A stretch of DNA of 64,000 nucleotides from assembly GCF_040359615.1 (NCBI RefSeq), contig NZ_CP132942.1, forward strand, positions 4,278,001 through 4,342,000, read 5' to 3'. Positions within the stretch are counted from its first letter, which is position 1, and every line of letters begins with the position of its first letter. The notes beneath the pieces are model-generated. The model saw nothing but the letters and a program-made list of their open reading frames with translations. It was not told the origin of the DNA and did not search any database. The position numbers and the translations under genes are program-made. Source of the stretch: Tunturibacter psychrotolerans. GTDB lineage: Bacteria > Acidobacteriota > Terriglobia > Terriglobales > Acidobacteriaceae. Shown one piece after another: positions 9,761 to 55,493 of this stretch.

Positions 9761-10625
9761 CTATGCGTCTAGCTTTGCGATCTGTTCCGCTACGGTTCGC
9801 AACCACTTTGTAAATGCGATCAGCGTCTTGAACCTGGCGCTGCTCTTCAGGCGTGCATAGCCAATGCGCCTCGATTGCTCCTTAGGCAATGGCATGACAG
9901 CACAGCGGTCTGCATGGATTGCCGCCATTCGTGGCGCGAAGGTTATTCCGGCTCTCGACGCTACCAGAGGGAAGATGGATCCAAAGTGATCGGACTCGAA
10001 GACGGGTGTCATCTTCGCGCGGCCTCTCCTGCAGGCGATCAGCATGTCGTCCCTGAAACAATGACCTTCCTTCAAAAGAAGTAGCCGCTCACCGGAAAGA
10101 TCTAGTGTGGCGGGTTGCGCCTGACAAAGTGTGTGGTCCTTTGGAGCAACAAGAACGAGTGGCTCACGTAATAATTCGCTACAGGCTCACAATGATCACG
10201 TCTATATCGCCTGCCCGGAGCTTATCGACAAGCTTCATTGTGACGTCTTCCGTCAGAACAATGTCGACCTCTGGATACAGGATCCAGAATTCGGGAAGGC
10301 GTGGCGCGAGCAGGTATGGAAGGACCGTCGAGATAACACCGATCCGAAGCGGTCCACGGATGCCATCTTCCAGTTGCCGAACTTGCGACTCAGCAATCTT
10401 GGATCTGTTGAGTATTTCCTTTGCGTGCGAGTAAAAGATTTCACCGGCGTGAGTCAACCGTACTGACCTGACCAGCCGTACAAAAAGGGTAGATCCAACC
10501 GATTTTTCTAATCTGCGAATCTGTAGAGAGAGCGTCGGCTGAGCTATCCCTTCCTGCTCCGCAGCCTTGGTGAAGCTGCCATATCGAACGACCGAACAAA
10601 AGGACCTTAGTTGTTGGAGTTCCAT
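9761..10625 (-). pseudogene. Frameshifted LysR-family regulator, OxyR-like
   Basis: Start at the ATG at 10625 (MELQQLRSFCSVVRYGSFTK). The N-terminal LysR helix-turn-helix is complete (AAEQEGIAQPTLSLQIRRLE). The effector domain begins normally (GPLRIGVISTVLPYLLAPRL) but runs into a TAG near 10169. Shifting frame restores ELLREPLVLVAPKDHTLC, LDLSGERLLLLKEGHCFRDD and the tail ending at 9761. The LLLLKEGHCFRD cysteine and the neighbouring catalases suggest an OxyR-like peroxide sensor. A single frameshift separates it from an intact gene, so it may be a recent loss. Confidence 0.8.
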
Positions 10626-10806
10626 CGCATTTCTATGATCTCGGTCTATGCAATTTGGCGAATTAGCGATTGGGAACTCGCGAGACTTTTTTGAGCAGGC
10701 CTGCAGTCGCGTCGAGGCTATAGATCTCAATGAATAATGGCTCCGCGACAGACTTGTTACGGAGCCACATTCGGCAATTTACCGGATAAAGGAGATCGCC
10801 GCCGCG

Positions 10807-35896: not shown

Positions 35897-36240
35897 GTTA
35901 GATCCTCCGCCTTGACGTTGAAGAAGCGCGCGATGATGGCCGCAGTCTGCTCCCAATCGCGGGCCTCCGCCTGGAGTTGCTTCCGGCCGGCCGCAGTAAG
36001 CCGATAGAAGCGCGCACGGCGGTTGTTTTCCGATACGCCCCACTCGGAGGCGATTGAGCCTTCATGCTCGAGTTTGAGCAGCAAGGGATACAGCGTGCCC
36101 TGGTTGACAGCCAGAAGGTCTTCGCTGATCTGCTCGATGCGCCGCGCGATTCCCCAACCGTGTTGCGCCCCCAGGACATCCAGCGTCTTGAGCACCATCA
36201 GCGTGAGGGTTCCCTGCAATACATCCGGCTTTTCCTTCAT
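35893..36240 (-). CDS. PadR-family transcriptional regulator
   Basis: 115 residues. The winged helix reads VLQGTLTLMVLKTLDVLGAQ, HGWGIARRIEQISEDLLAVN and QGTLYPLLLKLEHEGSIASE. The wing and dimer helix read GVSENNRRARFYRLTAAGRK and QLQAEARDWEQTAAIIARFF. This is the short PadR type regularly paired with ADOP permeases. Its TGA overlaps the permease GTG, and the palindrome at 36281-36297 is a likely autoregulatory site. Confidence 0.93.
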   Translation of the reverse strand: MKEKPDVLQGTLTLMVLKTLDVLGAQHGWGIARRIEQISEDLLAVNQGTLYPLLLKLEHEGSIASEWGVSENNRRARFYRLTAAGRKQLQAEARDWEQTAAIIARFFNVKAEDLT

Positions 36241-36280
36241 CGGAGATTCACCTTTAGGTTTCCAACAGGAATCTTGACAT

Positions 36281-36297
36281 GCTTCCTTTTGGAAAGC
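36281..36297. promoter_or_regulatory. Candidate PadR operator
   Basis: GCTTCCTTTTGGAAAGC is a near-palindrome (GCTT.CC/GG.AAGC) located 41-57 bases before the padR start in an AT-rich promoter-like stretch. Confidence 0.4.
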
Positions 36298-36503
36298 AAC
36301 AGGAGATTTTAAATTTTCTTTTCAACGAAAAATCCAGAAGAGTTGTCGTGAAACCGCCGGCATACTTTTCATTGAAGACGGCGTAGATTGATTCCGAATA
36401 AAGCGACAAGTGTCGAGAGATCTGCAAGCAGTTCCGACCTCAACTGTTGACTTCAGGCCAATATACTCATCGCACAGTATTTGAATCGACTCCGAAGGCT
36501 GCC

Positions 36504-36823
36504 TCAGCACTTTTCTCCCGCAATGTAGTTGTCGACGCTTGCTCTCGATATGCCAAACTCCTTTGCGAGTGTCGTCTTCCCTTCCCCTGCTTTGACTCGT
36601 GATCGCAGTAATGCCATCTTCTCTTTTGTAAGACTCGGCATTCTTCGCTGATACACATTTCCTTTCGCCTTGGCTAACGCGATGACCTCTCGCTGCCGCT
36701 TTTTGATGAGCTCGCGTTCGAATTGCGCGACAGCCCCCAGCATCGTGAGCAGCAAGTTTGACATCGGGTCTTTTCACCTGTGAAGGTGAGATTTCTTTTG
36801 GAATCGTACTTGGACTCCGCAAG
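36504..36823 (-). pseudogene. Serine resolvase/recombinase, C-terminal remnant
   Basis: The minus strand reads ESKYDSKRNLTFTGEKT, a one-base loss, then MSNLLLTMLGAVAQFERELI, REVIALAKAKGNVYQRR and AGEGKTTLAKEFGISRASVD. That is the end of the catalytic domain, the long helix and the helix-turn-helix of a Tn3/Hin-type serine recombinase. The catalytic serine half is gone, cut off exactly where the IS6 copy begins. It is the remains of a mobile element or plasmid. Confidence 0.8.
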
Positions 36824-37627
36824 GGCATTGTCAACTTGCGCACGAAACTTGAAAACACTGGTGCCATGAAGAGTGATTGCTTTCGTTACTCCGGCTATCG
36901 TTTCCCTTCCCAGATCAGCTATGCGGTGTGGACTTATCATCGCTTCTGCCTGAGTTTCCGGGATGTCGAAGATCTTCTGGCCGAGCGCGGCATCATCGTA
37001 TCCTATGAAACGATTCGGCAGAGATGTGTGAGAAGCTCGGTCTCGACTATTCTCGGCGATTGAAGCTACGAGAGGACGGCTGGGAGACCACTGGCATTTG
37101 GATGAAGTATTCATTCGAATCAACGGCCATCAGAGGTATTTGTGGCGCGCCGTGGATCAGGGCGGCGACGTGATCGACATTCTGGTCCAGCCGCATCTGA
37201 TCAGCGCGCCGCAGAGCGTTTTTTCGAAAACTCTTGCGTGGCCAGGGTTCGGACCCACTGCAGATCATCACCGACAAATTGAAGAGCTACTTCGCTGCCA
37301 TGCGAGGCATCTTCAGCAACGTAACTCACAGGGTGGAGCGGTACGCCAACAATCGCGTCGAAGTTTCGCTTCAGCCGACGCGCCAACGGCAACGACCGAT
37401 GCGCCGATTCAAATCTGCCAGACACGCACAACGCTTTCTCTCCCTCCATGATGCCGTCCGAAATCTGTTCCCAGTGGGCCGACACTTATTGAGGTCTAGT
37501 AATCACCGACTCCTGCGACCGCGGTCATTCGCGGTTTGGCGGGAAGTGACCGCGGCCTAAGCGAGCGCAAAAAACCCGCACCGTTCCCAGCTCAGAATGT
37601 CCCTCAGCGTCTTAAGTTGACAATTCC
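36824..37627 (+). mobile_element. IS6-family insertion sequence, decayed
   Basis: About 800 bases, the normal IS6 size. The left end GGCATTGTCAACTT (36824-36837) matches the inverted right end, whose complement reads GGAATTGTCAACTT (37614-37627). It contains one broken DDE transposase gene. It has inserted into the serine recombinase gene on its left. Confidence 0.75.
36866..37560 (+). pseudogene. IS6-family transposase pseudogene
   Basis: Pieces in order: FRYSGYRFPSQISYAVWTYH and VEDLLAERGIIVSYETIRQ, then CEKLGLDYSRRLKLRED, then WHLDEVFIRINGHQRYLWRA with the first catalytic Asp and VDQGGDVIDILVQ with the second. Then come GSDPLQIITDKLKSYFAAM, and RYANNRVEVSLQPTRQRQRP with the Glu region, and the tail MRRFKSARHAQRFLSLHDAV. 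At least three frameshifts or stops. Transposase of the IS26 class, inactive. Confidence 0.85.
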
Positions 37628-37850
37628 TTTTCTGGGTTTCCGTCTCAGATCAGCGATGAGTTGTCGGAAAGGGAGTCACATCTTAAAGGTGTCTGCCGAT
37701 GTACACGTGGAACCGATTGCGCCTAGGACACATCAAAATCTCTGCATTGTAGATATGTTCTGCGCAAATCCCCTGCAGGCGACCGTACAACCCTCGTGAG
37801 AAGACGCAAGGCGATGGTCCCCGCAGTCGCTGGTGCGTAAACCTAGGGGT

Positions 37851-38113
<263 letters not shown>

Positions 38114-38251
38114 TCTTTTGGAGCCCAATTCTTGTTAAAAACAACAAAACCGACAGTCGAACGGCGTCCAGGGGTCATCGGCAAAATGCATCTTTCCGAC
38201 GGTCCTTCCCGTTAGGCCCGGTAACACGCCCACCGCAGTTCCCTTCCCCAT

Positions 38252-38473
38252 TCAAGGAAAGTCAGTGAATAGATCCCGCGTGGGAATTGAGAGCGCCTTC
38301 GCCAACTTGACGATGTTTTCGAGGGCGATGTTGCGTTCTCCCCGTTCTACTCCGCCGACATAATTGCGATGTAGCCCGGCGCGCTCCGCCAGTTCTTCTT
38401 GAGAAAATCCACGGTCATCGCGGAGGCTCCGTATTCTTGAGCCGAAACGAGACTTAATGGAAGTAGGAGGCAC
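38252..38473 (-). CDS. Small XRE-family DNA-binding protein
   Basis: 73 residues with a GTG start at 38473. One helix-turn-helix domain fills it: GSRIRSLRDDRGFSQEELAE, RAGLHRNYVGGVERGERNIA, ALENIVKLAKALSIPTRDLF. Single-domain regulators of this type commonly control transfer or excision genes of integrative elements. A perfect 14-base inverted repeat spans the start codon. Confidence 0.85.
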   Translation of the reverse strand: MPPTSIKSRFGSRIRSLRDDRGFSQEELAERAGLHRNYVGGVERGERNIALENIVKLAKALSIPTRDLFTDFP

Positions 38474-38479
38474 ACCTCC
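38466..38479. promoter_or_regulatory. Inverted repeat over the XRE start, possible operator
   Basis: GGAGGCACACCTCC is a perfect inverted repeat (GGAGG/CCTCC, 4-base spacer). It lies in the 17-base space between two divergent genes and overlaps the XRE start, so repressor binding there would block both. Confidence 0.4.
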
Positions 38480-38490
38480 ATACTTCGATT

Positions 38491-38787
38491 ATGACCACTA
38501 TGAGTCTACACACGATGAGTGTGATAATGGCCAAGTCTGTACCAAGTGCGGGTAGTGCGGAGAGTCTGGAAATGCCTGAAGACATCATCGAGTGCACTGA
38601 AATCGTCGGTAAGGTTGTGAAATGTTTGAAACTATATCGAGCTGAGCCAGACGGCGCCGAGTTGCAGATCGACTTCGAGGATGGCACCTCGTTCTCGTGC
38701 ATTTTGGAGAGCAAACCCTCGGTCAAAGCCAGTCTCATTCAGACTGGAGTTGGTACCCCAGAAGTGCTTCGCCACTACATCGCATAG
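38491..38787 (+). CDS. Hypothetical protein, divergent from XRE gene
   Basis: 98 residues, not recognised. An acidic core (MPEDIIECTEIVGKVVKCLK, LQIDFEDGTSFSCILESKPS) suggests a small all-beta cytoplasmic protein. No clear ribosome site precedes the ATG, and an internal ATG at residue 4 or 9 is possible. It is divergent from the XRE regulator with 17 bases between starts, so the two are probably co-regulated. It lies inside the integrative element. Confidence 0.55.
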   Translation: MTTMSLHTMSVIMAKSVPSAGSAESLEMPEDIIECTEIVGKVVKCLKLYRAEPDGAELQIDFEDGTSFSCILESKPSVKASLIQTGVGTPEVLRHYIA

Positions 38788-39022
38788 CAACCACTATTCC
38801 CTCTTGGAATAACGGTGTTCCTAAAAGTTATTGGACTCGGTTGATTGGGTCATTCTAGTTTTGCGCCATGCTGACGCACCCGGTCAGCGGAGGTGCAATG
38901 TGGACCAAATCCTACCCGTCCTTCGATCGGATAAGTCATCCGTTCGGTTGCCTTTTACCCCTGGCCCTCCCTCGACAAGAGGAACCTCCATCTGGAGGCC
39001 AACAACCGCTCGAAAAGAAACC

Positions 39023-39322
39023 GTGCGTCGGGCCGTACGCGCCCTCGCACCCGCTCTTGTGGCGCTCTCATTTGCCACAGTCGCACATGCCCAAGGAACG
39101 ATGGACTTCTCGGGGGCTCAGACCCTCATGGGAACGTTCAAGACGTTCGCCATCTACGCGGGTGCTGTCATCTGCTTTGGCGGTCTCATTTTCGCCGGCA
39201 TTCGGATGATGAGCGGTCGCTTTCAAGACGCCATACCGGGCCTCTTCGGTGCGCTATTCGGTGCGGGCGTACTCGGATGGGGTGCTGGCTGGATCGGGTC
39301 TCTGACCGGCCAGTCAATGTGA
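39023..39322 (+). CDS. virB2: VirB2/TrbC-type pilin subunit
   Basis: 99 residues from a GTG at 39023. The frame opens at 38831, but residues before the signal peptide are not protein-like. Signal peptide RRAVRALAPALVALSFATVA then HAQ. Mature part is short with two hydrophobic helices (KTFAIYAGAVICFGGLIFAG, IPGLFGALFGAGVLGWGAGW), the shape of the conjugative pilus subunit. It is the first gene of the type IV secretion cluster, 7 bases before the virB3-like gene. Start uncertain. Confidence 0.75.
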   Translation: MRRAVRALAPALVALSFATVAHAQGTMDFSGAQTLMGTFKTFAIYAGAVICFGGLIFAGIRMMSGRFQDAIPGLFGALFGAGVLGWGAGWIGSLTGQSM

Positions 39323-39329
39323 GGGTGCC

Positions 39330-40502
39330 ATGCACACGACCAAGCGGGGAGAACCGTTACCAATCAACCAAGCGCTGAATCGACCGAGGGCCAAACTTGG
39401 CCTGGATCTCTCGGCATGGATGGCGATCACATTCGTCACGGTAACGGTTTTCCTCGTTGGGTTCCGAATGATTGCCGTATTCAGTTTCCCAATGATGGCG
39501 GGCGGCGCGTGGCTTATCGTCCGCAAACACCCAAAGATGTTCCAACTGTGGGGCCTGATCTACGGCGATAGCCCCAATGCTCCGACTCAGACGTCAAACG
39601 CGTCTCAAGTCCAGGCCGAGGCCAAACAAAGGGCGCTTGCTCGCGAGAAGCAGCAACAGGACGCTATCAATAGCGATACGGTCGCCATCGACTTTGCGCA
39701 CGCAGGAGGAGCGTCTTCAGCCTCCAGCCAGGCACCTACTGTTGTGCTTGGGCAACGAGAAGAAGCTCCCGTCAAGATGACAGGAGAGACGGCCACTCCG
39801 TCTGACGCCGGTAGTGGCGAAATAAGGCGGAGTCCTTCGCAGACCGCTTCTGACCAGCCTGCCAAGGCCGACGTCAAGACCAATCCGTTGGCCGGATATG
39901 ACTTCGACGCTTATCAGGGGCGCTTATACCGAGTCTTCGAAGGAACTGTTTTCGAGGGTGTCGTCACGAATCACATCGACGGTGGACTGACTGGACCGAT
40001 CTTGATCATGCTGACGACCGATTATTACTCCCACGACCATCAGCAGCTTCTTATGCCTCAGGGCACCAGGTTGATAGGCACCGTTCAGAGTGTCGGAAGC
40101 GCCCAGCAGCGAAAGATGTTCGTCACCTTCCATCGCGCCGTCTGCCCAGATGGATTCTCGTTGGATTTCGATAAATACATCGGCCTCGATCCGCTTGGAA
40201 CAACGGGCTTAGCCACTAAGGTCGACCACGGCTACCTACAGGCATTTGCCGCTGCTGCCGCGCTCGGCGGATTGGGCGGACTCGCACAAATCGGGAACGA
40301 CGGCAGTATCCTCTCGCCCTCCACCCAGATTCGCAATGGGATCTCCGGGCAAATGGCCGAAGAGGGGGAGCAGGTCCTCAATCACTTCCTGAATCGCCTA
40401 CCCATCATCACTCTCAAAGAGGGTTCCCGTGCCCGCGTGTATGTGGGGAGAGACATCTTGATTCCGTCTTACGCGGAACACCGCGTCGACTCAACCCTGT
40501 AG
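39330..40502 (+). CDS. VirB3-VirB10 fusion protein of type IV secretion
   Basis: 390 residues. Residues 1-85 look like VirB3/TrbD: PINQALNRPRAKLGLDLSAW, two membrane helices (FVTVTVFLVGFRMIAVFSFP, MMAGGAWLIVRK), then KHPKMFQLWGLIYGD. A Gln/Ala-rich linker (about 95-190) follows. Residues 190-390 are a VirB10/TrbI C-terminal domain: YRVFEGTVFEGVVTNHIDGG, LLMPQGTRLIGTVQSVGSAQ, FHRAVCPDGFSLDFDKYIGL, LNRLPIITLKEGSRARVYVG. VirB3 is an inner-membrane partner of the VirB4 ATPase and VirB10 spans both membranes. Fusing them and skipping virB4 to virB9 is unusual. No frameshift is seen, so it is either a true fusion or an in-frame deletion product. Confidence 0.75.
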   Translation: MHTTKRGEPLPINQALNRPRAKLGLDLSAWMAITFVTVTVFLVGFRMIAVFSFPMMAGGAWLIVRKHPKMFQLWGLIYGDSPNAPTQTSNASQVQAEAKQRALAREKQQQDAINSDTVAIDFAHAGGASSASSQAPTVVLGQREEAPVKMTGETATPSDAGSGEIRRSPSQTASDQPAKADVKTNPLAGYDFDAYQGRLYRVFEGTVFEGVVTNHIDGGLTGPILIMLTTDYYSHDHQQLLMPQGTRLIGTVQSVGSAQQRKMFVTFHRAVCPDGFSLDFDKYIGLDPLGTTGLATKVDHGYLQAFAAAAALGGLGGLAQIGNDGSILSPSTQIRNGISGQMAEEGEQVLNHFLNRLPIITLKEGSRARVYVGRDILIPSYAEHRVDSTL

Positions 40503-40562
40503 AGCGGATGGATCCCACCAGCTCTGAATGCTGCTAACCCCAACCCGATGTCAGGAGCCCGT

Positions 40563-41348
40563 ATGAAATTAATCAAGACAAAGAATAAGAAGTACCTCAT
40601 CGTTGGAAGCTTGGTTCTGGCTACGGCCACCCCCAGCTTCGCGATCTTCGGTGTAGGCGACATCGTTTTCGACCCAACCAGTTATGCCAGCCTCGTCTCA
40701 CAGGCGACAACGGCTCTCAACCAGCTCAAAACCATTCAGAGCAACATCGAGCACTTTTCGGTAAAACAGCAGTGGCAGACGGCTCTCACCAAGCTCGAAA
40801 ACATGAACGTCGCTAGCATGTTCGGCGAGACGGCGGGAATCAACATTGCGTTGAATGCCAACTCGCCGTCGGCATCGCTGACAGGGTGGAAGACCGCCAC
40901 AATGCCGATGAGTGGTAGTACGTCAGCCTACCTCCAGGGGCAGAACGTCAATAGTGCGCAGCGTGCCCAGCTCGCGATGATCGAAACCTCGGATGCGATC
41001 TCGCCCGATTGCCTTACTGCAGTGGGTACATATCGAAGCGGTCGCAACCAGAACTCCAACGCCAACTCGCTCCTTGCCCAACAGCAACTCGATATCACGT
41101 CTTCGACGAACAGTGAGATCGAGCAACTCAACTTATTGAACGCGGCAGAAGCCCAAAGAATGTCGGAGATGCAGGCGCAAGGTACGCTGCAGGCTTGTCT
41201 TGCCGCTCAGATGACGGTCGCCAACATGCAGGAACGTAACGCTGCTGTACTAGACCTGAACACAGCCGCTACAGTCCAGCAGCAGCGCTCGACGAACGAT
41301 ACCAGCGCTGCCAACGAATCGAATACTTGGCAGACCTATCTTCCTTAG
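40563..41348 (+). CDS. virB5: VirB5/TrbJ-like type IV secretion protein
   Basis: 261 residues. ATG at 40563 with AGGAG six bases upstream; an ATG at 40548 lies before that site. Signal peptide KYLIVGSLVLATATPSFA. The mature part begins IFGVGDIVFDPTSYASLVSQ, then ALNQLKTIQSNIEHFSVKQQ and other long helices, as in the minor pilus proteins VirB5/TrbJ. The C-terminus ends SAANESNTWQTYLP, almost the same as the tail of the next small protein. It sits between the virB3-virB10 fusion and virB6, its usual place. Confidence 0.8.
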   Translation: MKLIKTKNKKYLIVGSLVLATATPSFAIFGVGDIVFDPTSYASLVSQATTALNQLKTIQSNIEHFSVKQQWQTALTKLENMNVASMFGETAGINIALNANSPSASLTGWKTATMPMSGSTSAYLQGQNVNSAQRAQLAMIETSDAISPDCLTAVGTYRSGRNQNSNANSLLAQQQLDITSSTNSEIEQLNLLNAAEAQRMSEMQAQGTLQACLAAQMTVANMQERNAAVLDLNTAATVQQQRSTNDTSAANESNTWQTYLP

Positions 41349-41365
41349 GGCGGAGTTGATTCCCA

Positions 41366-41614
41366 ATGCCGAGTGCGATCAATACGAAGATCCTACTTGC
41401 GATCCTTGCGGCACTGACGGTCATCGGCGGTGCCGCGATCTATCAACGTCGCGCTGCCGAGAAGGCAGCCGCCATTCTCCAACAGCAACAGCGCGACGCC
41501 GAAGAACAGAAGAAACGAGATGAAGCTTTCCGACAGCAGGTAGAGAAGGACAAGAAGAAGCACAGCTCCTCCGCTGCAAACGAAGGCAAGACTTGGAAGA
41601 CCTACGTCCCCTAA
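41366..41614 (+). CDS. Small membrane-anchored protein sharing the VirB5 tail
   Basis: 82 residues. One N-terminal membrane helix (ILLAILAALTVIGGAAIYQR), a Gln/Lys-rich helix (AAAILQQQQRDAEEQKKRDE), and the tail SSAANEGKTWKTYVP. The tail aligns with the VirB5-like protein's SAANESNTWQTYLP just upstream. It occupies the position of the small VirB7/entry-exclusion-type genes in conjugation clusters but has no lipobox. Function unknown. Confidence 0.65.
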   Translation: MPSAINTKILLAILAALTVIGGAAIYQRRAAEKAAAILQQQQRDAEEQKKRDEAFRQQVEKDKKKHSSSAANEGKTWKTYVP

Positions 41615-41629
41615 TGAGAGAGTGTCCCG

Positions 41630-42556
41630 ATGGCATCGATAACTTTGTTAGCCCAAGCTCTACCAAGCGCGAGTTCCGGCGTGAACTGGCTTTACCAGTT
41701 CACGAATAACCTCACCAATCTGACGACGCAAAACGGCGGAGCGCTGACCCAGCTTGGACTCACGGAACTAAGCGCCATCTCGCTCTTTGTGCTCATCAGT
41801 ATGGTCATCAACTGGAATACCACCGGCATGACCCTTCGTTTCCACACACAGCCGGTACGCGTTGGCGATATGACCAACTTCCTCTTGCGGCTGATTGTCT
41901 GCTGCCTGCTCGAAAACTATTGGGTCAATCCGTTTCCGGGAGCCAGCTTCGGCATCAATCACTTCTTTTCCTACATCGCTCAGTCAATGGTGGCCGTCTT
42001 CGATCAGAATTCTCTCGACAATCTGCTTCAACTGGTTAAAACGGCTGGAGACAACACGGCGATGCCGTCGATCACGGCACCCACTCAGATCCTTTGCTAT
42101 ATCCTTGTGCAGATTCTTCTCGGTCTGGCTTCCGCAATCCTTTTTGTCATCAATTGCAGCTCATTCATCCTATACGGCGTAACCGCGCTCTTCGGGCCGA
42201 TCTTTGTACCTTTGCTTATGACGAAGACCTTCCAATCGAAGTTCTTTCACTTCCTAGACGTCCTAATAGGTTTCGCCATGATCAGGGCTGTTGCCGGCGC
42301 CTTCATCTTCGTGTGGGCCGGCTTTATGAACGCCTTCATTCAACAGACGTTCAATGGCAACTATTCGATGGAGATGTGGCTTGCAAATCTTATCCCTTGC
42401 GTGATGGTTTTCATCGCGTTCATCATTAATATGCTCTTCATTCCGAGTATGACGCAGGCCATATTCGGTGGAGCGGCTGGACTAGTTTCGGCTGCCCCCG
42501 GAGTGGCTGGAAGCATCGGCGGCATGGCCCTCATGAAGAAGGCTGGAGGTGCATAG
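41630..42556 (+). CDS. virB6: VirB6/TrbL-type polytopic membrane protein
   Basis: 308 residues, typical VirB6 length. At least five membrane helices: LGLTELSAISLFVLISMVIN, MTNFLLRLIVCCLLENYWVN, LCYILVQILLGLASAILFVI, FILYGVTALFGPIFVPLLMT and CVMVFIAFIINMLFIPSMTQ. The central FGPIFVPLL stretch and the Ala/Gly-rich tail fit VirB6/TrbL. It forms part of the inner-membrane channel for DNA transfer. Followed by a small gene one base after its stop. Confidence 0.85.
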   Translation: MASITLLAQALPSASSGVNWLYQFTNNLTNLTTQNGGALTQLGLTELSAISLFVLISMVINWNTTGMTLRFHTQPVRVGDMTNFLLRLIVCCLLENYWVNPFPGASFGINHFFSYIAQSMVAVFDQNSLDNLLQLVKTAGDNTAMPSITAPTQILCYILVQILLGLASAILFVINCSSFILYGVTALFGPIFVPLLMTKTFQSKFFHFLDVLIGFAMIRAVAGAFIFVWAGFMNAFIQQTFNGNYSMEMWLANLIPCVMVFIAFIINMLFIPSMTQAIFGGAAGLVSAAPGVAGSIGGMALMKKAGGA

Positions 42557-42557
42557 C

Positions 42558-42755
42558 ATGTGGAACTTCTTATTAGCCCTGTTCGTCGGGACTGCTGCAG
42601 GTAGTACTCGCACCGCGCAGCGATCCGTGAGGCCCATCTTGGCCCTACTCGCAATTGGAGTCATCGTCGCTGGTTTGATCTACGCATGCGTTATCTTCAA
42701 GGCCGTCTCGGAAAGGAGCAGCAAACCCCATGTCAGCACACACAGCACGCATTGA
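42558..42755 (+). CDS. Small single-pass membrane protein
   Basis: 65 residues from the ATG at 42558, which follows the virB6 stop by one base and uses GGAGG inside its end. A hydrophobic N-terminus (WNFLLALFVGTAAGS) and one membrane helix (ILALLAIGVIVAGLIYACVI) are visible. It overlaps the virB8 start by 26 bases. No family recognised; likely a T4SS accessory. Confidence 0.6.
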   Translation: MWNFLLALFVGTAAGSTRTAQRSVRPILALLAIGVIVAGLIYACVIFKAVSERSSKPHVSTHSTH

Positions 42756-43536
42756 AACCACCCTTACTCGGGAGCACGCGCTCCTCGCCGACAAGATCGG
42801 CAATGAGGTGTATGCCTCGCACTATGCTGAGCGGAAAGCCTATCGATTTGCACTTGGATGTGGGGCCGTTGCGCTCCTGGCCTCCATCGGGATGAATGTC
42901 TCGCTGGCTCACCGGCCGATGGCGAATCGGTACATCCGGATAGACGAGATGGGACGCGCTCAGGCCATCGCTTACAGCGACCTGAATTACAGCCCGCGCG
43001 AGGGTGAGGTTCGCACTTATCTGACCGATTGGGCCAACTACCGGTACACGATAAGCCGCGATACGGTGGCCAAGAAGTACCCCCTGAATTACTATTTTCT
43101 CTCCCAGACGTTGGCCTCCCAGTTGATGACCGATGACAACGCAAATCACTTCGTCTCCCAGGTCGTGGGAGGCCAAATCGAACAGAGCGATGTGGAGGTG
43201 AAGAATGTCACGATCACCTCTATGTCTGAGGAGACTGTTCAGGGAGCCAGAATCGCACGTGGGAATGCCCTGATTACTCTCGACAAGCTCTACTCGCCCC
43301 ACAACTCGCGGGAGCCGAGAACCGAGCACTGGGCGATGACAGTGACCTATTACCTCAACCCAAAGCAGGTTAGCGATCAGGCGAAGATCTTTCCGCAGTT
43401 CGAGACGATCAACCCCCTCGGCTTGACCGTCACCGAGTTTCACGAAAACCGGCTCTCGGTTGATCTGATCGCCCCCGGAACTACCGGACCACTGCAGTCG
43501 TTCCCCAGCCAAGTTCCGGCCGGAGGTTCCCGATGA
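42730..43536 (+). CDS. virB8: VirB8/TrbF-like type IV secretion protein
   Basis: 268 residues. A short cytoplasmic N-terminus precedes one membrane helix (FALGCGAVALLASIGMNVSL). The periplasmic VirB8 domain has NRYIRIDEMGRAQAIAYSDL, VRTYLTDWANYRYTISRDTV, KKYPLNYYFLSQTLASQLMT and EHWAMTVTYYLNPKQ. It ends with NPLGLTVTEFHENR. VirB8 nucleates assembly of the inner-membrane complex. Its last four bases overlap the start of virB11 (ATGA). Confidence 0.87.
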   Translation: MSAHTARIETTLTREHALLADKIGNEVYASHYAERKAYRFALGCGAVALLASIGMNVSLAHRPMANRYIRIDEMGRAQAIAYSDLNYSPREGEVRTYLTDWANYRYTISRDTVAKKYPLNYYFLSQTLASQLMTDDNANHFVSQVVGGQIEQSDVEVKNVTITSMSEETVQGARIARGNALITLDKLYSPHNSREPRTEHWAMTVTYYLNPKQVSDQAKIFPQFETINPLGLTVTEFHENRLSVDLIAPGTTGPLQSFPSQVPAGGSR

Positions 43537-44501
43537 GTTATCACCTGATTTTGCCGTTTTTCCCCGAGGAGTTGCGCGAGCTGTTGCTTGACCCGTCTAT
43601 TTCGGACCTGATGATCAACGGCACCACCGGCGTCTTCGCGGACCGGAACGGCGTGGTCCAGCATATTCCTCTTGCTTCGCCCTATTCCAACGATCGGCTG
43701 CAGGCGGCAATCGAGCGTGTGGCCCGCATCCTGGGGCAAGATCTTTCGTCCCAGAATCCGATCCTTAACACGCGCTTGCCGGACGGCTCCCGCGTTGCCG
43801 TGGTTGGTGCCCCATCATCCATCAACGGCCCGACCCTTACCATCCGCAAATTCAACCGCTGGTATACCTCGGATGAGCTAATCGCATCGGGCAGCCTACC
43901 GTCGCACGTCAGAAACGAAGTAGTAAGCCTAATGAACGCCAAAAAGAACGGCATCATCAGCGGCGGAACCGGCTCAGGGAAAACTACCTTAATGAAGGCG
44001 CTCCTCGACCACGTACCCAGGCACGAGCGTCTCGTCGTAATCGAGCAACCCGCGGAGTTGAAGGTGTCTCATCCAAATGCAGTTCGCTGGGAGGCTGTAG
44101 AGGCGATTCCGGGGCAGGTAGCCATTACTTCAAGCCAACTTCTGGCCGCCGCTCTCCGCCATCGTCCCGACCGAATCATCATGGGCGAAATCCGCGATGA
44201 GTGCGGCTACGACCTGTTGCAAGCTATGAATACTGGCCACGGCGGAACACTTTCGACCATCCACGCAAAGTCTGCGTGGGATGCCCTTAATCGCCTATCT
44301 GATTTGGCCCTGAGTGCGAGGGCAAATCTGAACCATGCGTTTGTGCGTTCTGAGACCGCAGAAGCGATTGACTTCGTCCTTTATTGCGAACGCGACCATA
44401 CCGGCCGCCGTCGAGTTCGCGAGTTGGTGAAAGTGAACGGTTACACCCATGCGGACCAATCCTTTCAGACGGAGGACATTTATCGTGCTTCCGCCGCCTG
44501 A
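43533..44501 (+). CDS. virB11: VirB11/TrbB-type secretion ATPase
   Basis: 322 residues. N-terminal domain (LRELLLDPSISDLMINGTTG). RecA-like ATPase with Walker A GIISGGTGSGKTTLMKALLD, an Asp box (VVIEQPAELKVSHPNAVRWE), Walker B RIIMGEIRDECGYDLLQAMN and a His box (TGHGGTLSTIHAKSAWDALN). Hexameric motor that powers pilus assembly and DNA transfer from the cytoplasmic side. In most trb/virB clusters virB9 and virB10 stand between virB8 and virB11; here they do not. Confidence 0.93.
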   Translation: MSYHLILPFFPEELRELLLDPSISDLMINGTTGVFADRNGVVQHIPLASPYSNDRLQAAIERVARILGQDLSSQNPILNTRLPDGSRVAVVGAPSSINGPTLTIRKFNRWYTSDELIASGSLPSHVRNEVVSLMNAKKNGIISGGTGSGKTTLMKALLDHVPRHERLVVIEQPAELKVSHPNAVRWEAVEAIPGQVAITSSQLLAAALRHRPDRIIMGEIRDECGYDLLQAMNTGHGGTLSTIHAKSAWDALNRLSDLALSARANLNHAFVRSETAEAIDFVLYCERDHTGRRRVRELVKVNGYTHADQSFQTEDIYRASAA

Positions 44502-44988
44502 ACGCAGGCAATCCAGCTAAGAACCCAATCCGAATCTGAGGTCACTTCGATGTCCGATCAAGCTGCCAATATGGCTGCACAGCCCAACTCGTCTCAAGAA
44601 GCGCGTAGCGTGCCCATACCGAGCCGCGAAGGACGCGACAGGCACAGTTCGAAGCCATCCTCAATCGGAGTCTCAGCCCGCCCGAGATGGGCCGCAGTTC
44701 GGACGAACTTCTATCGCCGAGACGTGAAGAGTGACTTTGGTGCATTGAGAGTCTTTCCGCCTCGTATCCCGTCCTCTACTCGGGATCACGCTTCGGGGCC
44801 TATCCGGCGCCCAGCGGCTCGGCGCTCTTCTGCTTCGGCTTCGCCGCCCTACGGGTTACGGTTTCCGTCTACGACCGACCCTCCGCAAATGCAGAGCTTG
44901 GCACTTGGGAGCCGGGCCCGCTCGCCAGGCTTTGCCGGGAGTGACCCGAGCAAGATACGGGAAATTCAACGAAACGGAGAACACCATC
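44502..44988 (+). other. Leader region before ssb, no convincing gene
   Basis: A long frame opens at 44550, but its Ser/Arg/Pro-rich content has no domain and it overlaps the ssb start region. The stretch probably acts as the ssb leader and promoter. It contains GCGCTC- and CCGGCG-rich runs. Confidence 0.35.
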
Positions 44989-45372
44989 ATGTACCAGAAC
45001 AAAGTTACCCTCATCGGCTTCCTCGGCAACGACGCAGAGGTTCGCTCCAACGATAACCGCAGCCTGACCACCCTCTCGCTGGCAACCAAGAGCTCTTACA
45101 AAAAGGACGGCAAGTACATCGAACATACCGAGTGGCACCGTTGCGTCGCTTTCGGCAAGCTCGGAGAGTTCGCCAGCACGCTCAAGAAAGGCGCTCATAT
45201 ACAGGTCGAGGGCGAGCTGCGCAGCCGGAAGTATGACAGCAAGAAGACGAATTCAGAGCAGACCGTTTGGGAGATTCGGGTCAACTCGATTCTCAAGCTG
45301 GATCGCGCCGCCAAATCGACGGCTGAGGAGCAGGAAGAAGACGATACTCCGCAGGAGGACGCGGCCGCATAG
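44989..45372 (+). CDS. ssb: Single-stranded DNA-binding protein (element-encoded)
   Basis: 127 residues. ATG at 44989 with GGAGA upstream. The OB fold is clear: MYQNKVTLIGFLGNDAEVRS, TLSLATKSSYKKDGKYIEHT, EWHRCVAFGKLGEFASTLKK and GAHIQVEGELRSRKYDSKK. The acidic tail (EEQEEDDTPQEDAAA) lacks the canonical hydrophobic DDIPF tip. It is a plasmid/ICE-type SSB protecting the transferred strand, and fits with the primase and MobC-like genes that follow. Confidence 0.92.
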   Translation: MYQNKVTLIGFLGNDAEVRSNDNRSLTTLSLATKSSYKKDGKYIEHTEWHRCVAFGKLGEFASTLKKGAHIQVEGELRSRKYDSKKTNSEQTVWEIRVNSILKLDRAAKSTAEEQEEDDTPQEDAAA

Positions 45373-45439
45373 GCCGTTTCTTCATTACTTTCACGGAAGC
45401 TCGGCTAGCGCCGGGCTTCCATCACTGTGAGGCTTCGCA

Positions 45440-46402
45440 ATGAACCTGAAATCAGCCCAAGAGTTCTTGACTCGGTGCTTTGCCCCGGAAGAAACGATCG
45501 CCCTCCTATTGCGCTCCGAAGCGACCGCCAGGGTCACGCAACGGATCGTGACCGTGAAACAAGCAACTGGTCTTCGATATCTCGGATGGCTCGCCTACGA
45601 AAACACCACCGGCGCGAACATCTATGTAGCGGCGAATCCACTTCGTTCAGGCAGCAGGAAGCGCACGAAAGAAAGCATCGCATCGGTACGCCATATCTAC
45701 ATTGATATCGACACAGACGGCGAGGCTCGAATCGCGACGGTCCGGTCCACCGAACTTATACCCGCACCTACCGTCATCCTGTCTACATCGCCCGGCAAGT
45801 ATCAGGCTCTTTGGCGTGTTGACGGCTTCGATTTGGTGAGTCAGGAAGATTTGCTCAAGCATCTCGCAATCGCTTTCGGTGGCGACCCAGCTTGCACCGA
45901 TTGCAATCGTGTACTTCGAATACCCGGCTTCCTGAATCGCAAATACGATCCAGCTTACCTCGTGAGCGCTGAGTATTTTGGCAATTCGGTACATAAGCCG
46001 ATTGACTTTCTGTTGCCGATAGCTTCCGTCGGCACTGCGCTCTCTGAGTGCTTAGACCTGACTCCGAAAAGACCTGGGCTGCACAGCACATCGGAGAGCG
46101 ATTGGGCTTGGGTCTCTCAGGGACTCGCTGACGGCCGGGATGCCGCGAAACTGACTAAAGAACTAGCTTCCCGTCGTGCTGATAAGCCCAATCCTCTCTA
46201 CTATGCGCAACGAACGGTTGACGTCGCATCCGCTCGGCTTTGGATGCTCGAGGGAGTTCCTCACGAAGACATCGTCACCATGCTCGAATGCCGCCGTCGC
46301 TTCGAGATTTCGACCACACTTTGCTCGGCTCGTGCGCGAGAGATTACTGCAACCGCAGCGCGCATGATCGTCCCGCAGAAGAATTGCCTAATACAAACCT
46401 GA
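45440..46402 (+). CDS. RepB-type primase-like protein (AEP superfamily)
   Basis: 320 residues. Motifs of the plasmid RepB'-like archaeo-eukaryotic primase fold are visible in order: VRHIYIDIDTDGEARIATVR (the paired acidic metal ligands), ILSTSPGKYQALWRVDGFDL, and the Cys/Arg motif ACTDCNRVLRIPGFLNRKYD. A helical C-terminal region follows (SDWAWVSQGLADGRDAAKLT). No helicase domain is attached. It may prime the complementary strand after transfer or element replication. Start has GAGG seven bases upstream. It lies between ssb and a small gene, 12 bases from the latter. Confidence 0.75.
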   Translation: MNLKSAQEFLTRCFAPEETIALLLRSEATARVTQRIVTVKQATGLRYLGWLAYENTTGANIYVAANPLRSGSRKRTKESIASVRHIYIDIDTDGEARIATVRSTELIPAPTVILSTSPGKYQALWRVDGFDLVSQEDLLKHLAIAFGGDPACTDCNRVLRIPGFLNRKYDPAYLVSAEYFGNSVHKPIDFLLPIASVGTALSECLDLTPKRPGLHSTSESDWAWVSQGLADGRDAAKLTKELASRRADKPNPLYYAQRTVDVASARLWMLEGVPHEDIVTMLECRRRFEISTTLCSARAREITATAARMIVPQKNCLIQT

Positions 46403-46414
46403 CAGGAGAACATA

Positions 46415-46741
46415 ATGCCATTACTCGAAGTCATCCAGACCAAACAGATCAGCGCCTCTATTCGCCTATCCGATACGACCGCCACACAGGTCGACCAGTA
46501 CGCGGCTTTCATTCGTGCTTGCGCCGACGATGTCGTGGAGCAAGCCCTGTCCTATGTCTTCTCGAAAGATCGCGACTTCCAGGAGTTTCTGAAGACCCCA
46601 GAGGCGCGACAAGTTGCTTCCACACTTCGAATCCGAAAGGCGCCTGCTCCGGAAGCAGTCGAGTCAGCGGGAAAGAAGCCCATTTCCGCGCTTGAATCCT
46701 TATCTATTCCCACACCAGTAGCGGCAGGATCAAAGGCATGA
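46415..46741 (+). CDS. Small element protein of unknown function
   Basis: 108 residues with a good GGAGAA site. Starts with a beta-strand then helices (TKQISASIRLSDTTATQVDQ, YAAFIRACADDVVEQALSYV), which fits a ribbon-helix-helix-like dimer, and has an Ala/Pro-rich tail. It is probably co-transcribed with the primase and may be a partition or copy-control protein. Not assigned to a family. Confidence 0.55.
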   Translation: MPLLEVIQTKQISASIRLSDTTATQVDQYAAFIRACADDVVEQALSYVFSKDRDFQEFLKTPEARQVASTLRIRKAPAPEAVESAGKKPISALESLSIPTPVAAGSKA

Positions 46742-46789
46742 TCCTCCATTCAAATCCGTCGCAGGACCACAACGGTGCTTCGCACCGGA

Positions 46790-46915
46790 AGAATGTTGAC
46801 ACTCCACCCCTGATAGGGAGCTGTTTAGCTCCCTGCGGGAGCTAATGGGTTCCCACTGAAACGCCAGCACTTAGCAAATTGCCGGGAGCCGATTAGCTCC
46901 CTGAGTTTTCGGAAA
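46790..46915. other. Candidate oriT: repeated hairpins before the MobC-like gene
   Basis: GGGAGCTGTTTAGCTCCCTG (46816-46835) and GGGAGCCGATTAGCTCCCTG (46884-46903) are direct repeats at 18 of 20 positions. Each forms a hairpin (7 of 7 pairs in the first) with a four-base loop. A third GGGAGCT at 46837-46843 can pair with the first AGCTCCC instead. They lie in the only sizeable gap of this gene group, directly before the MobC-like accessory gene, where transfer origins usually are. Iterons or attenuators are alternatives. Confidence 0.5.
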
Positions 46916-46930
46916 TGGAGGGCGATAACG

Positions 46931-47305
46931 ATGCCGACTTTAGATACAGAACGGCCAGCGAAACGAGGCTCGCTGCGGGGTCGCGAGAGCCGCAATCAGA
47001 CGCTCAGCACCAAGCTCACGGAGACGGAATATCGCACCGTCGAGAGGGCGTCGTCTGCCGATGGCAAGACGACCGGGGAGTGGCTTCGCGACCTTACTCT
47101 CCGTAGCCTTCGCAGCGGAGCGAACGACACCGAACTCATCGCCCTGTCTGAGATCGTCGGCGTTCGGCTCCTCCTGGTCAACGTCCTCCGTTCACTCGGA
47201 ACTGGACAACGAATGACCGCTGAAGCGTTCGACAAGTTGGTGAATGAGATCGGTGCGACCAAGTACGACCTTGCTGCCAAGCTCATCGCAGAAAGGCGGA
47301 GGTAG
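46931..47305 (+). CDS. MobC/TraJ-like ribbon-helix-helix relaxosome accessory protein
   Basis: 124 residues; ATG with GGAGGG nine bases upstream. The basic N-terminus is followed by LSTKLTETEYRTVERASSAD and GKTTGEWLRDLTLRSL, the ribbon-helix-helix typical of MobC/NikA-like accessory proteins. A helical tail follows (LLLVNVLRSLGTGQRMTAEA). Such proteins bind oriT and help the relaxase nick. A relaxase gene is expected nearby but is not present. Confidence 0.65.
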   Translation: MPTLDTERPAKRGSLRGRESRNQTLSTKLTETEYRTVERASSADGKTTGEWLRDLTLRSLRSGANDTELIALSEIVGVRLLLVNVLRSLGTGQRMTAEAFDKLVNEIGATKYDLAAKLIAERRR

Positions 47306-47307
47306 TC

Positions 47308-48128
47308 ATGGCAAAGACTGTTTGGGGTCGAAAAGAGACTGTCATCTGGCCGCGCCACATGCCGATCTACACATATGCAGTAGCCTTTGGCGTCGCGTTT
47401 CTTACCTTCATCGCTGTCTGCGTTCGCATCCATTTGGCGACACCCTTGGAACGGTATTGCCTTCCCGCCTACGAGCGTTCCTCGGCTTTCGGCTCTGTCA
47501 TGAAGAGCCACAAAAGCACCTATCGTCTGCTCTTCGTCGGTGGTCCGCGAAGCACTCCACGTCCTGCCATGAACGATGACGTAGTTCTCGGCAAGACTGA
47601 GGACTCGGGCGGCCAACTCATACCGCTCGCTCTTTCCGCAGACGCTCGCGATCGCGGCTATTCGCTCCTGTTTCGGGCACCCGCCAGGAGCTATGTGGAT
47701 GCCCGGTTCAGCCTCTATCTGAAGGGTGTTGTCTTCGAAGGGAGGACGCTCTTCGCATTCTTCCGGCCCCCTGTTCTTGGCGGCGGAGGTTCATTCCTGG
47801 TCCTATTGCCGATCGCTTGTTTCAAGGATGTTCAACGCCAGAAACAGTTGAAGTACGGGCGTCGCCTCAAAGGCCCGGAGATGCTGACGCCGCAACAATT
47901 CAACAAGACCGTGAAGGGCGACGGCGTCGGCTTCAAGACGAACGACATGACTCCTATGCTCCGCATCCCCATGCGTGCCGAGGCGCAGCACATGCAGATA
48001 ATCGGGGACACCGGCGCTGGCAAGTCCGCGCTCATGTTTCAGGTGCTCCGTCAGGTACAAAGCCGTGGCGATGCGGCCATCGTGTATGACCCTGCCCGCG
48101 AGTTCGTGAAGCGCTTCTATAGCGTTTC
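47308..48128 (+). pseudogene. Type IV coupling protein (VirD4/TraD-like), truncated after Walker A
   Basis: About 270 residues remain. An N-terminal membrane helix (IYTYAVAFGVAFLTFIAVCV), a periplasmic insert, and a second helix (FFRPPVLGGGGSFLVLLPIA) are followed by LKGPEMLTPQQFNK, RIPMRAEAQHMQIIGDTGAG then KSALMFQVL (Walker A), and AAIVYDPAREFVKRFY. The homology then stops abruptly at about 48128. The Walker B and the rest of the motor domain (300 or more residues) are missing. Coupling proteins bring the relaxase-DNA complex to the channel, so transfer by this copy should fail. Start overlaps the mobC stop region by spacing of two bases. Confidence 0.8.
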
Positions 48129-48130
48129 CA

Positions 48131-48574
48131 ACCAATCCGCCCCACGTCGAGTATCTCGTTCTGATCCGTGATGCCAAAAAGGTGTCGGCTGGAATCGATC
48201 ACAAGGCCTTGCTCGTTTCCAAACACAACGAGATCGTCAGCAGTTACGCACTGTTCGCAGACGCACTTGAACAGAATGAACTCGATTCCATTACACCCAA
48301 TCGGGCACTCACTCCTATACGACGGTCATTGGTGAGCTGTTACTCAAATCGATCATCGGGGGTAAAGGACCTAAAGAAAGCGATCTCTTCGACACACGGC
48401 CTTAGGGTCTTGAAGTACTGTCCTATGTGCGGGGTCACGTCTCCATCTACTTACGATCACTACCTTCCGTCGTCTAAATTCCCAGAGTTTGCCGTTCACC
48501 CTGTAAATCTCATCCCTTGCTGCTCAATTTGCAATTCCACCAAGGACGACGAGGTGATCGACGGCATCCGGTAG
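48131..48574 (+). pseudogene. HNH-endonuclease-like protein, fragment
   Basis: The frame runs from the coupling-protein break point without its own start; GTG at 48182 is the first possible one. It reads HVEYLVLIRDAKKVSAGIDH and KHNEIVSSYALFADALEQNE, then the HNH/zinc region LKYCPMCGVTSPSTYDHYLP, SSKFPEFAVHPVNLIPCCSI and CNSTKDD. CxxC, DH and N-PCC-CN are all present. After residue ~145 it runs into dehydrogenase DNA in antisense. Such HNH proteins occur in defence and mobile loci. Both ends look truncated. Confidence 0.65.
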
Positions 48575-49424
48575 CGCGTTGAAACTGTATCTGGCATCGT
48601 CTCGCGAGCCGACGCTAACGCCCTGAAGTCGTACAGTTTTGGCGATCGCGGCCAGAATCGAAAATGTCGTAGAAGGACGATCCATGATGCCGATCAAGGC
48701 AATATGTCCTCCCCTCCGATGACATCGAGGACGTGGTCGACACCGCGTCCATGGGTGAGCTCGAGTACAACCTCATCCCATGTTGCGTTCGTACTCGTAT
48801 CAATAACCTCTACCGCTCCCAATTGTTTCAGGCGCGCAATCTTGCCTGGGCTTCTGGAAGTTACGAACACGTGAGCGCCATGTGCCACCGCCAATTGCAG
48901 AGCAAATAGCGAGACACCGCCGCTTCCCTGAAGCAGAACCGTCTCTCCCGGCTTCAGATTGCCATGCTTGAACAACGCAACCCAAGCAGTAATTGCAGCC
49001 ACCGGCAGCGTTGATGCTTCTTCCGGTTTCAGATAATCGGGATAGACAAGCGCCTTGTTCAGACAGCAAGACAATATTCGGCGAGCACGCCCGGGAGTGG
49101 GCCACCGAGGTTTTCGCGCATCGCCTCGGGCGAAGGCACTCCACGGAGCCACTTCGGCCTAAAGAGAGAAATTACCTGGTCGCCCACTTTGAGGCGAGAT
49201 ACTCCGGAACCGACTGCGACAACTTCGCCCGCCAGGTCCGATCCAGGCACCAGAGGGTACAACATGGGCACTGGATATTTATCTTCAATGACGAGCTTAT
49301 CGCGATAGTTCAGTGATACGGCCTTGGTGCGAACCAGAACTTGGCCAGCCTGCGGCTGGGGCGTCGGACTCTCGATAAGGTGAAGGTTTTCGTTTCCGCT
49401 TTTCTTCAACTGCCAGCTCTTCAT
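48552..49424 (-). pseudogene. Zinc-type alcohol dehydrogenase (MDR) pseudogene, copy 1
   Basis: Close relative of the intact gene at 60929-61936. It starts MKSWQLKKSGNENLHLIESP at 49424 and is good to LGGPLPGVLAEY near 49065, where it shifts frame. It resumes YPDYLKPEEASTLPVAAITA, KPGETVLLQGSGGVSLFALQ and DHVLDVIGGED, then has deletions and a scrambled end near 48552-48700. Against the intact copy it lacks roughly 35-40 residues of the C-terminal half in two deletions. The high similarity shows that it is half of a locus duplication. Confidence 0.88.
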
Positions 49425-49543
49425 ACAGTTCTCCGATGATTGAGTTATCGTTCGAATTGATCCTGATCGCAGGGCACTATTCGACTCTTTGCCCCAGAGA
49501 GGAAGGTTGTTTCATAGGTTGCGATAAAAAGATCGCGTATGGT

Positions 49544-50986
49544 TCAGGGTCTTCCGCCTCTCGCAGCCGGAGGAAGAGTTTGCGGCCATCCGCCAGCAAG
49601 CGATTTGTACAGTAGAACGGCAGAGAGGGCGCTGTTGGAATGGCTTTCCGCATAAGCATCTGCGGCCTGCAGTTCAACTCTCTGCGCGTCCAGCAGGTCC
49701 AGTAAGCCGGTCGCCCCATTCTTGAAACGAACACTGGCAAGATCGGCTGCACGTTTACTATCCTCGGCAGCGAGCTGGAGTTGAACGTCACGGTCCTGCG
49801 ACCTTGCATAGCTCACAAGAGCGTTCTCAACGTCCTCGAGAGCCAAGAGAACCGATTGCTGATACTGGGCAAGTTGCGCATCGCCATCGGCTCGGCTTGC
49901 CGCGATTCGAGCGCGAACTCTTCCTCGGTCAAGAAAGGACCAATCGATGTTCAATTCCGCCAGGTTCACAGCACTGACTCCGTCAAATGGCGTATCCCCA
50001 TGAATCTCGTTCAGTCCAATAAGGCCCGCGAAGTTGACACGTGGGAAAAGGTCCGCAGTGGCAATACCGATTTGTTCCGTCGCGGCATGCAGGCGTTCCT
50101 CCGACGCGCTTACGTCGGGGCGGCGGCGTACAAGATCAGCTGGTGTTCCGGGAGTGATACGCTCAGGTAGGGCGGGTAGTGGCCTTGCCACTTCAAGCTC
50201 AGAGACGAGAGTATTTGGGGAAAGCCCGCATAGCACGGCAAGGCGATGTTCATCGAGTGCGATCGCAGCGAGCAGTTCCGGAATGCGAGAGGTAGTTGTC
50301 TCGAGAAGAGCACGTGCTCTCGCCGTATCGAACTGTGTTCCTCTACCAGCCGAGTAAGTCGCGTCAACTAGCCTTACTGTCTCCTGCTGGTTCGCAACAT
50401 TCTCCCGCGCTACCCGAAGAAGTTCCTGCCGTCCACGGAGGTCTATATAAGTACTTGCAACGTCGCCAACCACGGTAACCTGCATCGCAGCAAGATCACT
50501 TGCATCCGCAAGAGTCCGCTGGCGTTGTGCCTCTATGTTGTGACGAACGCGACCAAACAAATCGAGCTCCCAACTTGCATTGATCTCTGGGTCGAAAAAG
50601 CGACTATTCCGAGGATAGCCGAGCGCCTGGGCTGCACTGAGTTTTTGCCTACCCACGCTCGTGCTCATCGTTACCGTGGGATAACGATCGAACTTTGCTT
50701 CATGCAATAGGGCATTAGCGCTGTCGTAATGGGCAAGCGCGGCGCGCAGATCGTTATTCGCGGTAAGCGCGCGCTGCACAAGCGAGCTGAGTTCTGGGTC
50801 ATGAAAACTATGCCAGAACTCCGGATCGTTCGCGTCCGCATGGGGACTGACGTCAACGGAAGCTGTATCGGGGGCGGTGAACTGCTGCGGAAGCGCAAGC
50901 GTTGGCTGTTTGTAACGGGGACCAACGGAACATGCGGTAAGCCCAAGAGAGAGCACCGTCGCCAGAATTGATTTGCGATTAAGCAT
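49544..50986 (-). CDS. RND efflux outer-membrane lipoprotein (NodT/OprM family)
   Basis: 480 residues; ATG at 50986 overlaps the RND gene's stop region and has AAGGAGGAG just upstream. Lipoprotein signal KSILATVLSLGLTACSVGPR. Two TolC-like repeats follow: EFWHSFHDPELSSLVQRALT, NNDLRAALAHYDSANALLHE, SWELDLFGRVRHNIEAQRQR, TPADLVRRRPDVSASEERLH, and RFKNGATGLLDLLDAQRVEL. It forms the outer-membrane exit duct of the tripartite pump encoded just upstream. Intact and last gene of the operon. Confidence 0.94.
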   Translation of the reverse strand: MLNRKSILATVLSLGLTACSVGPRYKQPTLALPQQFTAPDTASVDVSPHADANDPEFWHSFHDPELSSLVQRALTANNDLRAALAHYDSANALLHEAKFDRYPTVTMSTSVGRQKLSAAQALGYPRNSRFFDPEINASWELDLFGRVRHNIEAQRQRTLADASDLAAMQVTVVGDVASTYIDLRGRQELLRVARENVANQQETVRLVDATYSAGRGTQFDTARARALLETTTSRIPELLAAIALDEHRLAVLCGLSPNTLVSELEVARPLPALPERITPGTPADLVRRRPDVSASEERLHAATEQIGIATADLFPRVNFAGLIGLNEIHGDTPFDGVSAVNLAELNIDWSFLDRGRVRARIAASRADGDAQLAQYQQSVLLALEDVENALVSYARSQDRDVQLQLAAEDSKRAADLASVRFKNGATGLLDLLDAQRVELQAADAYAESHSNSALSAVLLYKSLAGGWPQTLPPAARGGRP

Positions 50987-54155: not shown

Positions 54156-54169
54156 GATCTGCCTCTTCC

Positions 54170-55459: not shown

Positions 55460-55493
55460 TGCCTGCCTCCTCTGGAGCATCAACCTTGGCGCT

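Follow-up and report, generated by a model that had tools for sequence, protein, structure and literature searches.

An in-frame virB3-virB10 reading frame in Tunturibacter psychrotolerans, very probably the scar of a deletion in a decaying conjugative element

The window analysed here, a stretch of 64,000 nucleotides from Tunturibacter psychrotolerans (contig NZ_CP132942.1, positions 4,278,001 to 4,342,000), contains an uninterrupted open reading frame in which the N-terminal part of VirB3 is joined to a C-terminal part of VirB10. Taken together, our results indicate that this frame very probably marks the place where an integrated conjugative element, now in decay, lost about 3.6 kb through one in-frame deletion. 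The original prediction had offered two explanations, a deletion product or a slimmed-down machine with a dual-role protein. The former is favoured by the comparison with relatives, as their virB4-virB9 segment is missing here and other parts of the element are likewise cut or missing.

The reading frame and its joint

The frame shows neither a stop codon nor a frameshift across the virB3/virB10 joint, and it keeps its start codon as well as a GAGG-like ribosome site. Employing hmmscan, the Pfam family PF05101 (VirB3) was found at residues 10-79 (67.5 bits, cut-off 23.9), spanning profile positions 3-72 of 84, and PF03743 (TrbI/VirB10) at residues 202-376 (143.5 bits, cut-off 35). The claim of an in-frame VirB3-VirB10 fusion, which had been made from the sequence of the window, is thus confirmed by an open frame of 390 codons with both domains above the cut-off. 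In contrast, the extent of the two parts had to be corrected: VirB3 had been assigned to the first ~85 and VirB10 to the last ~200 residues, whereas the VirB3 part comprises residues 1-76 and the VirB10 part all 314 amino acids from residue 77 onwards.

The position of the joint follows from the alignment with the full-length VirB10 protein P0002, as residues 77-390 of the fusion are 96% identical to residues 128-441 of P0002, which places the joint between residues 76 and 77. Correspondingly, residues 2-74 of the 87 amino acid VirB3 protein encoded at locus L022 align to positions 39339-39557 and residues 128-445 of the L022 VirB10 to 39558-40499; the match to the relative's VirB3 therefore ends directly where the match to VirB10 residue 128 begins. 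In addition, the VirB10 half matches the solved TrwE protein of R388 (2.3e-10). The VirB3 part has lost ~13 residues of its tail and retains the entire hydrophobic region (residues 23-64). The first 127 codons of virB10 are absent, including the hydrophobic stretch at residues ~20-51 of P0002 that forms the N-terminal anchor, and the fusion has neither the N-terminal tail nor the single inner-membrane anchor proper to a VirB10 protein. The features of the locus are compiled in Table 1.

Table 1. Coordinates of the fusion frame and of neighbouring genes in the window.
Feature	Position	Strand	Basis or remark
virB2-like pilin ORF	38831..39322	+	PF04956, 25.5 bits, just below the cut-off of 27.9; same place in relatives
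virB3-virB10 fusion ORF	39330-40502	+	390 codons, no interruption
virB3 part of fusion	39330..39557	+	residues 1-76; PF05101 match, L022 VirB3 alignment
Putative deletion joint	39556..39559	+	comparison with relatives and nearest DNA
virB10 part of fusion	39558..40502	+	residues 77-390; P0002 identity, PF03743, L022 VirB10
virB5-position ORF, open	40548..41348	+	position conserved in relatives
Small conserved ORF, 82 aa	41366..41614	+	position conserved in relatives compared
virB6/trbL, open	41630..42556	+	PF04610, 26.1 bits (cut-off 25.9)
virB8, open	42730..43536	+	PF04335, 9.7e-12
virB11/trbB-like ATPase, open	43533..44501	+	PF00437, 4.4e-43
Single-strand binding protein gene	44905..45372	+	PF00436, 2.1e-21
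RepB-like primase-domain gene	45440..46402	+	PF16793, 3.5e-45
Small conserved ORF, 108 aa	46415..46741	+	position conserved in relatives
NikA-like mobilization accessory gene	46931..47305	+	PF21983, 20.1 bits, below the cut-off of 27
traD/virD4 coupling-protein gene, 5' fragment	47308..48171	+	PF10412; cut at residue 274 of 664
Truncated HNH gene abutting traD break	48131..48574	+	PADLOC PDC-M01B, 7.4e-34; PF01844 below cut-off

Compared to the relatives, the ~3.6 kb absent at the joint correspond to the 3' end of virB3, to virB4, to virB9 and to the missing virB10 codons. At the 64 loci where it could be measured, the distance between VirB3 codon 74 and VirB10 codon 128 has a median of 3638 bp and a range of 1062-3963 bp, the two shortest spacings being those of L056 and L075. 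When compared with the nearest DNA available in place of the true parent sequence, the two inferred parental ends have ~2 bp (GA) in common, and this near-zero homology would be consistent with an illegitimate deletion. The region 36000-50500 was searched for direct repeats of at least 15 bp as possible att or recombination sites, which yielded no family; the four inverted pairs in this region are all located away from the joint.

To estimate the age of the event, we compared the VirB10 part with its sister P0002, taking the state shared by most of the remaining full-length relatives as the ancestral one. The 12 differences comprise five derived in the window, three derived in P0002 and four ambiguous ones. 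Since there is no clear excess of derived substitutions relative to P0002 and no sign of long decay, the deletion is probably recent; an equal substitution rate in both proteins is likewise expected under retained function.

Gene order, related deletions and rarity of the fusion

When genome contigs were scanned, a relative of the fusion was found to be encoded on 137 stretches. We kept the 80 best, which represent 74 distinct loci and carry acidobacterial names, except for one labelled Verrucomicrobia. All nine genes, partial matches included, are present at 55 of the 74 loci, and all 55 show the order virB2-3-4-9-10-5-6-8-11, while the remaining 19 lack one or more of the genes, mostly on short contigs or through missing genes. 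The impression of a reordered cluster with a misplaced virB10 gene is thus not upheld, as this order is normal for the acidobacterial relatives. Judged by alignment coverage, virB3-4-9-10 is complete at 58 of the 74 loci, a few of them frameshifted (L046, L052). Nine further contigs are too short upstream for a judgement, and two loci (L102, L103) contain virB3 and a cut virB4 gene and no virB10 on the stretch. The other five comprise three with a deletion or absence, namely L038, where nothing of virB2-4 or virB9 is present, and L056 and L075 with internal deletions, and two (L098, L099) where the contig ends inside virB10. Hence, the relatives contain separate virB3 and virB10 genes with virB4-virB9 in between, the very arrangement named beforehand as speaking against a real fusion architecture, which is thus not supported. 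Moreover, five congeneric loci (L107, L108, L109, L111 and L112) show virB3 remnants, mostly accompanied by virB2, in which virB4 is cut and virB10 is missing from where it would be expected; remnants of this kind seem to be common.

The nearest known system is the VirB/Trb-type conjugative type IV secretion system (T4SS) of acidobacterial elements (Granulicella, Edaphobacter, Terracidiphilus and others), which is also present on plasmids of Granulicella tundricola and Acidisarcina. The window has the same gene order on either side of the joint, and the nearer relatives show ~60-90% protein identity in virB5, virB6, virB8, virB10 and virB11. For NikA and TraD the identity is ~30-65% at most loci, but 93-97% in L040 and L064. 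In contrast to these systems, the window is devoid of virB4, virB9, the virB3 tail, the 5' part of virB10, most of traD, the relaxase and the integrase.

Three other loci have lost DNA in the same interval. The deletions extend from virB4 codon ~79 to virB10 codon ~274 in L021, from virB4 ~350 to virB10 ~134 in L056 and from virB4 ~349 to virB9 ~218 in L075, and all of them are out of frame. Including the window, one of four is therefore in frame, in a set biased to the virB3-virB10 interval by scans anchored on the fusion protein; this is about chance level and renders a single in-frame join unremarkable. L021 was considered as a further VirB3 fusion and rejected, as the VirB3 stop codon is kept and virB4 is joined to virB10 out of frame. 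In L056 (~9996) and L075 (~9440) different deletions break virB4 at nearly the same codon (~349-350), either by chance or due to a fragile spot, and a further deletion in L056 (13650-13950) joins virB8 to the RepB-like gene with removal of virB11.

A search with the complete fusion protein yielded matches at E <= 1e-25 in 45 of 62 congeneric genomes. Among the matches listed, where a fusion joined at quite another point might be split into two entries, a one-piece match over residues 1-390 was found in the host's own genome and in none of the other 61. The recurrence across related genomes that the original prediction had put forward as a check was therefore not observed. In the best 120 of 2858 proteins (E <= 0.001), both domains are present in one, P0018. 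A search with residues 1-80, covering proteins of 0.55-1.75 times the query length among relatives with common short exact words, yielded 17 proteins from 49 candidates, and again P0018 alone also contains PF03743. In others of the 17 the VirB3 part is joined to an integrase, a single-strand binding protein (SSB), a VirB4 P-loop domain or a LytTR regulator; these joins look like debris. Several proteins of ~220 amino acids from this search were rejected as fusions, being merged virB2-virB3 readings. Searches of this kind detect in-frame joins only and are uninformative on the frequency of in-frame events.

P0018 is a metagenomic protein of 390 amino acids encoded on a contig of 6423 bases. Like the window fusion, it begins with the N-terminus of VirB3 and continues in frame into VirB10, with both Pfam domains above the cut-off. 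However, its joint connects VirB3 residue ~48 to VirB10 residue ~100, and it retains one membrane segment instead of two. As the joint differs from that in the window, P0018 probably arose by a separate event, which suggests independent accidents and not an architecture that the two have in common. Among the papers listed, no title or abstract start describes a VirB3-VirB10 fusion; where 'VirB3-VirB10' is written, a range of proteins is presumably meant. A keyword search for acidobacterial conjugative T4SS found no paper.

Missing components and remaining genes

To follow the missing components beyond the window, the host genome (5.64 Mb, 99% complete, two contigs) was searched. There were no matches to PF03135 (CagE_TrbE_VirB) for virB4 or to PF03524 (CagX/VirB9) for virB9. 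The VirB4 protein of a relative likewise yielded no match in the host genome, and matches in five of five other genomes in the same search. The claimed absence of virB4 and virB9 is therefore borne out genome-wide in the profile and protein searches run, although both genes might reside on a plasmid that was not assembled. VirB4 is the partner docked by VirB3, and VirB9 is the partner of VirB10. The VirB3 part adjoins no virB4, none being found in the genome, and the VirB4 ATPase and VirB9 expected of a VirB/VirD4-type T4SS were not found in these searches. The same holds for the relaxase and full coupling protein expected of a conjugative element: PF08751 gave no match in the host genome in a search directed at TrwC-type relaxases, and TraD in the window is a fragment. 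This fragment shares 95.6% identity with residues 1-274 of the TraD encoded in L040, the remainder of which is without match in the window, and the NikA-like gene shows 97% identity with its L040 counterpart. The ORF following traD in L040, which by its sequence we take to be a MobF-type relaxase, has no match in the window.

Upstream of virB2, the relatives contain an integrase-like ORF and an ORF for a LysR-like regulator, both named here by sequence appearance. The former was seen at 8 to 19 of the 74 loci, according to the query used, and the latter at 29, many of the 74 stretches being too short to show either. The integrase queries yielded no match in the window; of the four LysR queries shown, three gave no more than a weak match at 10182-10631 (28-29% identity), ~28 kb from virB2.

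As to the genes that remain (Table 1), the true start of the virB2-like ORF is probably downstream of the listed TTG. The virB5-position ORF matches no Pfam family above the cut-off, and its name is our assumption from position. The virB11/trbB-like ATPase also matches TIGR02788 and TIGR02782, under their curated cut-offs. The HNH gene at the traD break encodes 147 amino acids in the reading used, compared to an open frame of 306 amino acids in G012. There, at locus L120, the full gene comes after an ATPase-like ORF, a pairing presumably reminiscent of Septu-type defence; PDC-M01B is a PADLOC candidate family. An RND efflux operon (49544-55483, minus strand) encoding an outer-membrane factor, an AcrB-type pump and a membrane-fusion protein is located ~1 kb past the remnant.

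Origin of the fusion and predicted behaviour of its product

We propose that an element with the gene order of the relatives would have integrated at this locus. An illegitimate deletion relying on ~2 bp of homology may then have removed the virB3 tail, virB4, virB9 and 127 virB10 codons, leaving the reading frame intact by chance, and the integrase side, the relaxase and the bulk of the coupling protein would have gone in further deletions. That the remaining tra genes are still open is probably due to the recent date of the damage. We infer that the function of the machine is lost, although these genes, the start codon and the ribosome site are intact.

The maintained frame, the open state of the other virB genes and the existence of P0018 are also what a slimmed-down machine would show, in which one protein at the VirB3 position bridges the envelope like VirB10. 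Given that VirB4, VirB9, a TrwC-type relaxase and a complete coupling protein were not found, that the joints of the two fusions differ and that one of 62 congeneric genomes has a one-piece match, we regard this dual-role alternative of the original prediction as hardly credible. That repeated copies of the element were collapsed or misjoined during assembly is conceivable inasmuch as such elements are multicopy in many relatives; however, with one match to the fusion protein and none to VirB4 in its own genome, no second copy seen and an assembly in two contigs, an artefact is extremely improbable.

The fusion might also be retained as an interfering subunit that jams incoming related conjugation machines, a very unlikely reading, as are the routes it could take, such as titration of VirB8 or VirB6 or a poisoned VirB10 ring. 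In the genus, related elements are widespread and often present in several copies, in-frame fusions are known from at least two independent cases and the other tra genes of the window are open, but no sign of selection was found, the deletions in L021, L056 and L075 hit the same interval out of frame, and the debris-like joins of the VirB3 part to unrelated sequence (integrase, SSB, LytTR regulator) argue against it. Similarly, we attach very little weight to the broader idea that VirB3-VirB10 chimeras arise repeatedly in acidobacterial elements and are kept for poisoning related machines, thereby protecting the host or the relic.

As the very probable scar of a deletion, the window fusion is largely ordinary, the curiosity being that there are apparently two independent in-frame VirB3-VirB10 chimeras. 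It illustrates that a two-domain fusion may be in frame and make biological sense and yet be nothing more than the debris of a deletion. Debris and architecture can be told apart by the gene order in relatives and by the genome-wide absence of the partners, further checks being additional breaks within the element and deletions of the interval that are out of frame. Fusions of VirB3 with VirB4 are known, as stated in a passage of PMC4643968 for CagE and Campylobacter and in part of PMC12102498. VirB3 is N-terminal in these proteins as in the window fusion, but their partner is VirB4, the neighbour docked by VirB3. In the window, VirB4 is absent and the partner domain is TrbI/VirB10, probably joined by deletion, which sets the fusion apart from this group.

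If translated, the product of the deletion would be an inner-membrane protein held by the VirB3 hairpin and incapable of forming an outer-membrane core. PMC9259494 describes VirB3 in the R388 structure as possessing two membrane segments, and a passage of PMC12857230 gives it short cytoplasmic extensions at both ends; together with the retained hydrophobic region, this topology predicts the VirB10 part of the window fusion on the cytoplasmic side, in contrast to the periplasmic location expected for the C-terminal domain of a VirB10 protein. One passage of PMC2653234 (2009) holds the older, contrary view of VirB3 as an exported outer-membrane protein, while another raises an inner-membrane role instead. 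A structure model of the fusion, built on a 14-row alignment, was too poor for use (mean pLDDT 41.7, pTM 0.23). In P0018, which retains the first membrane segment only, the VirB10 part could be located in the periplasm, and comparing the two fusions would be a natural way to ask how the topology in the membrane constrains VirB10 function.
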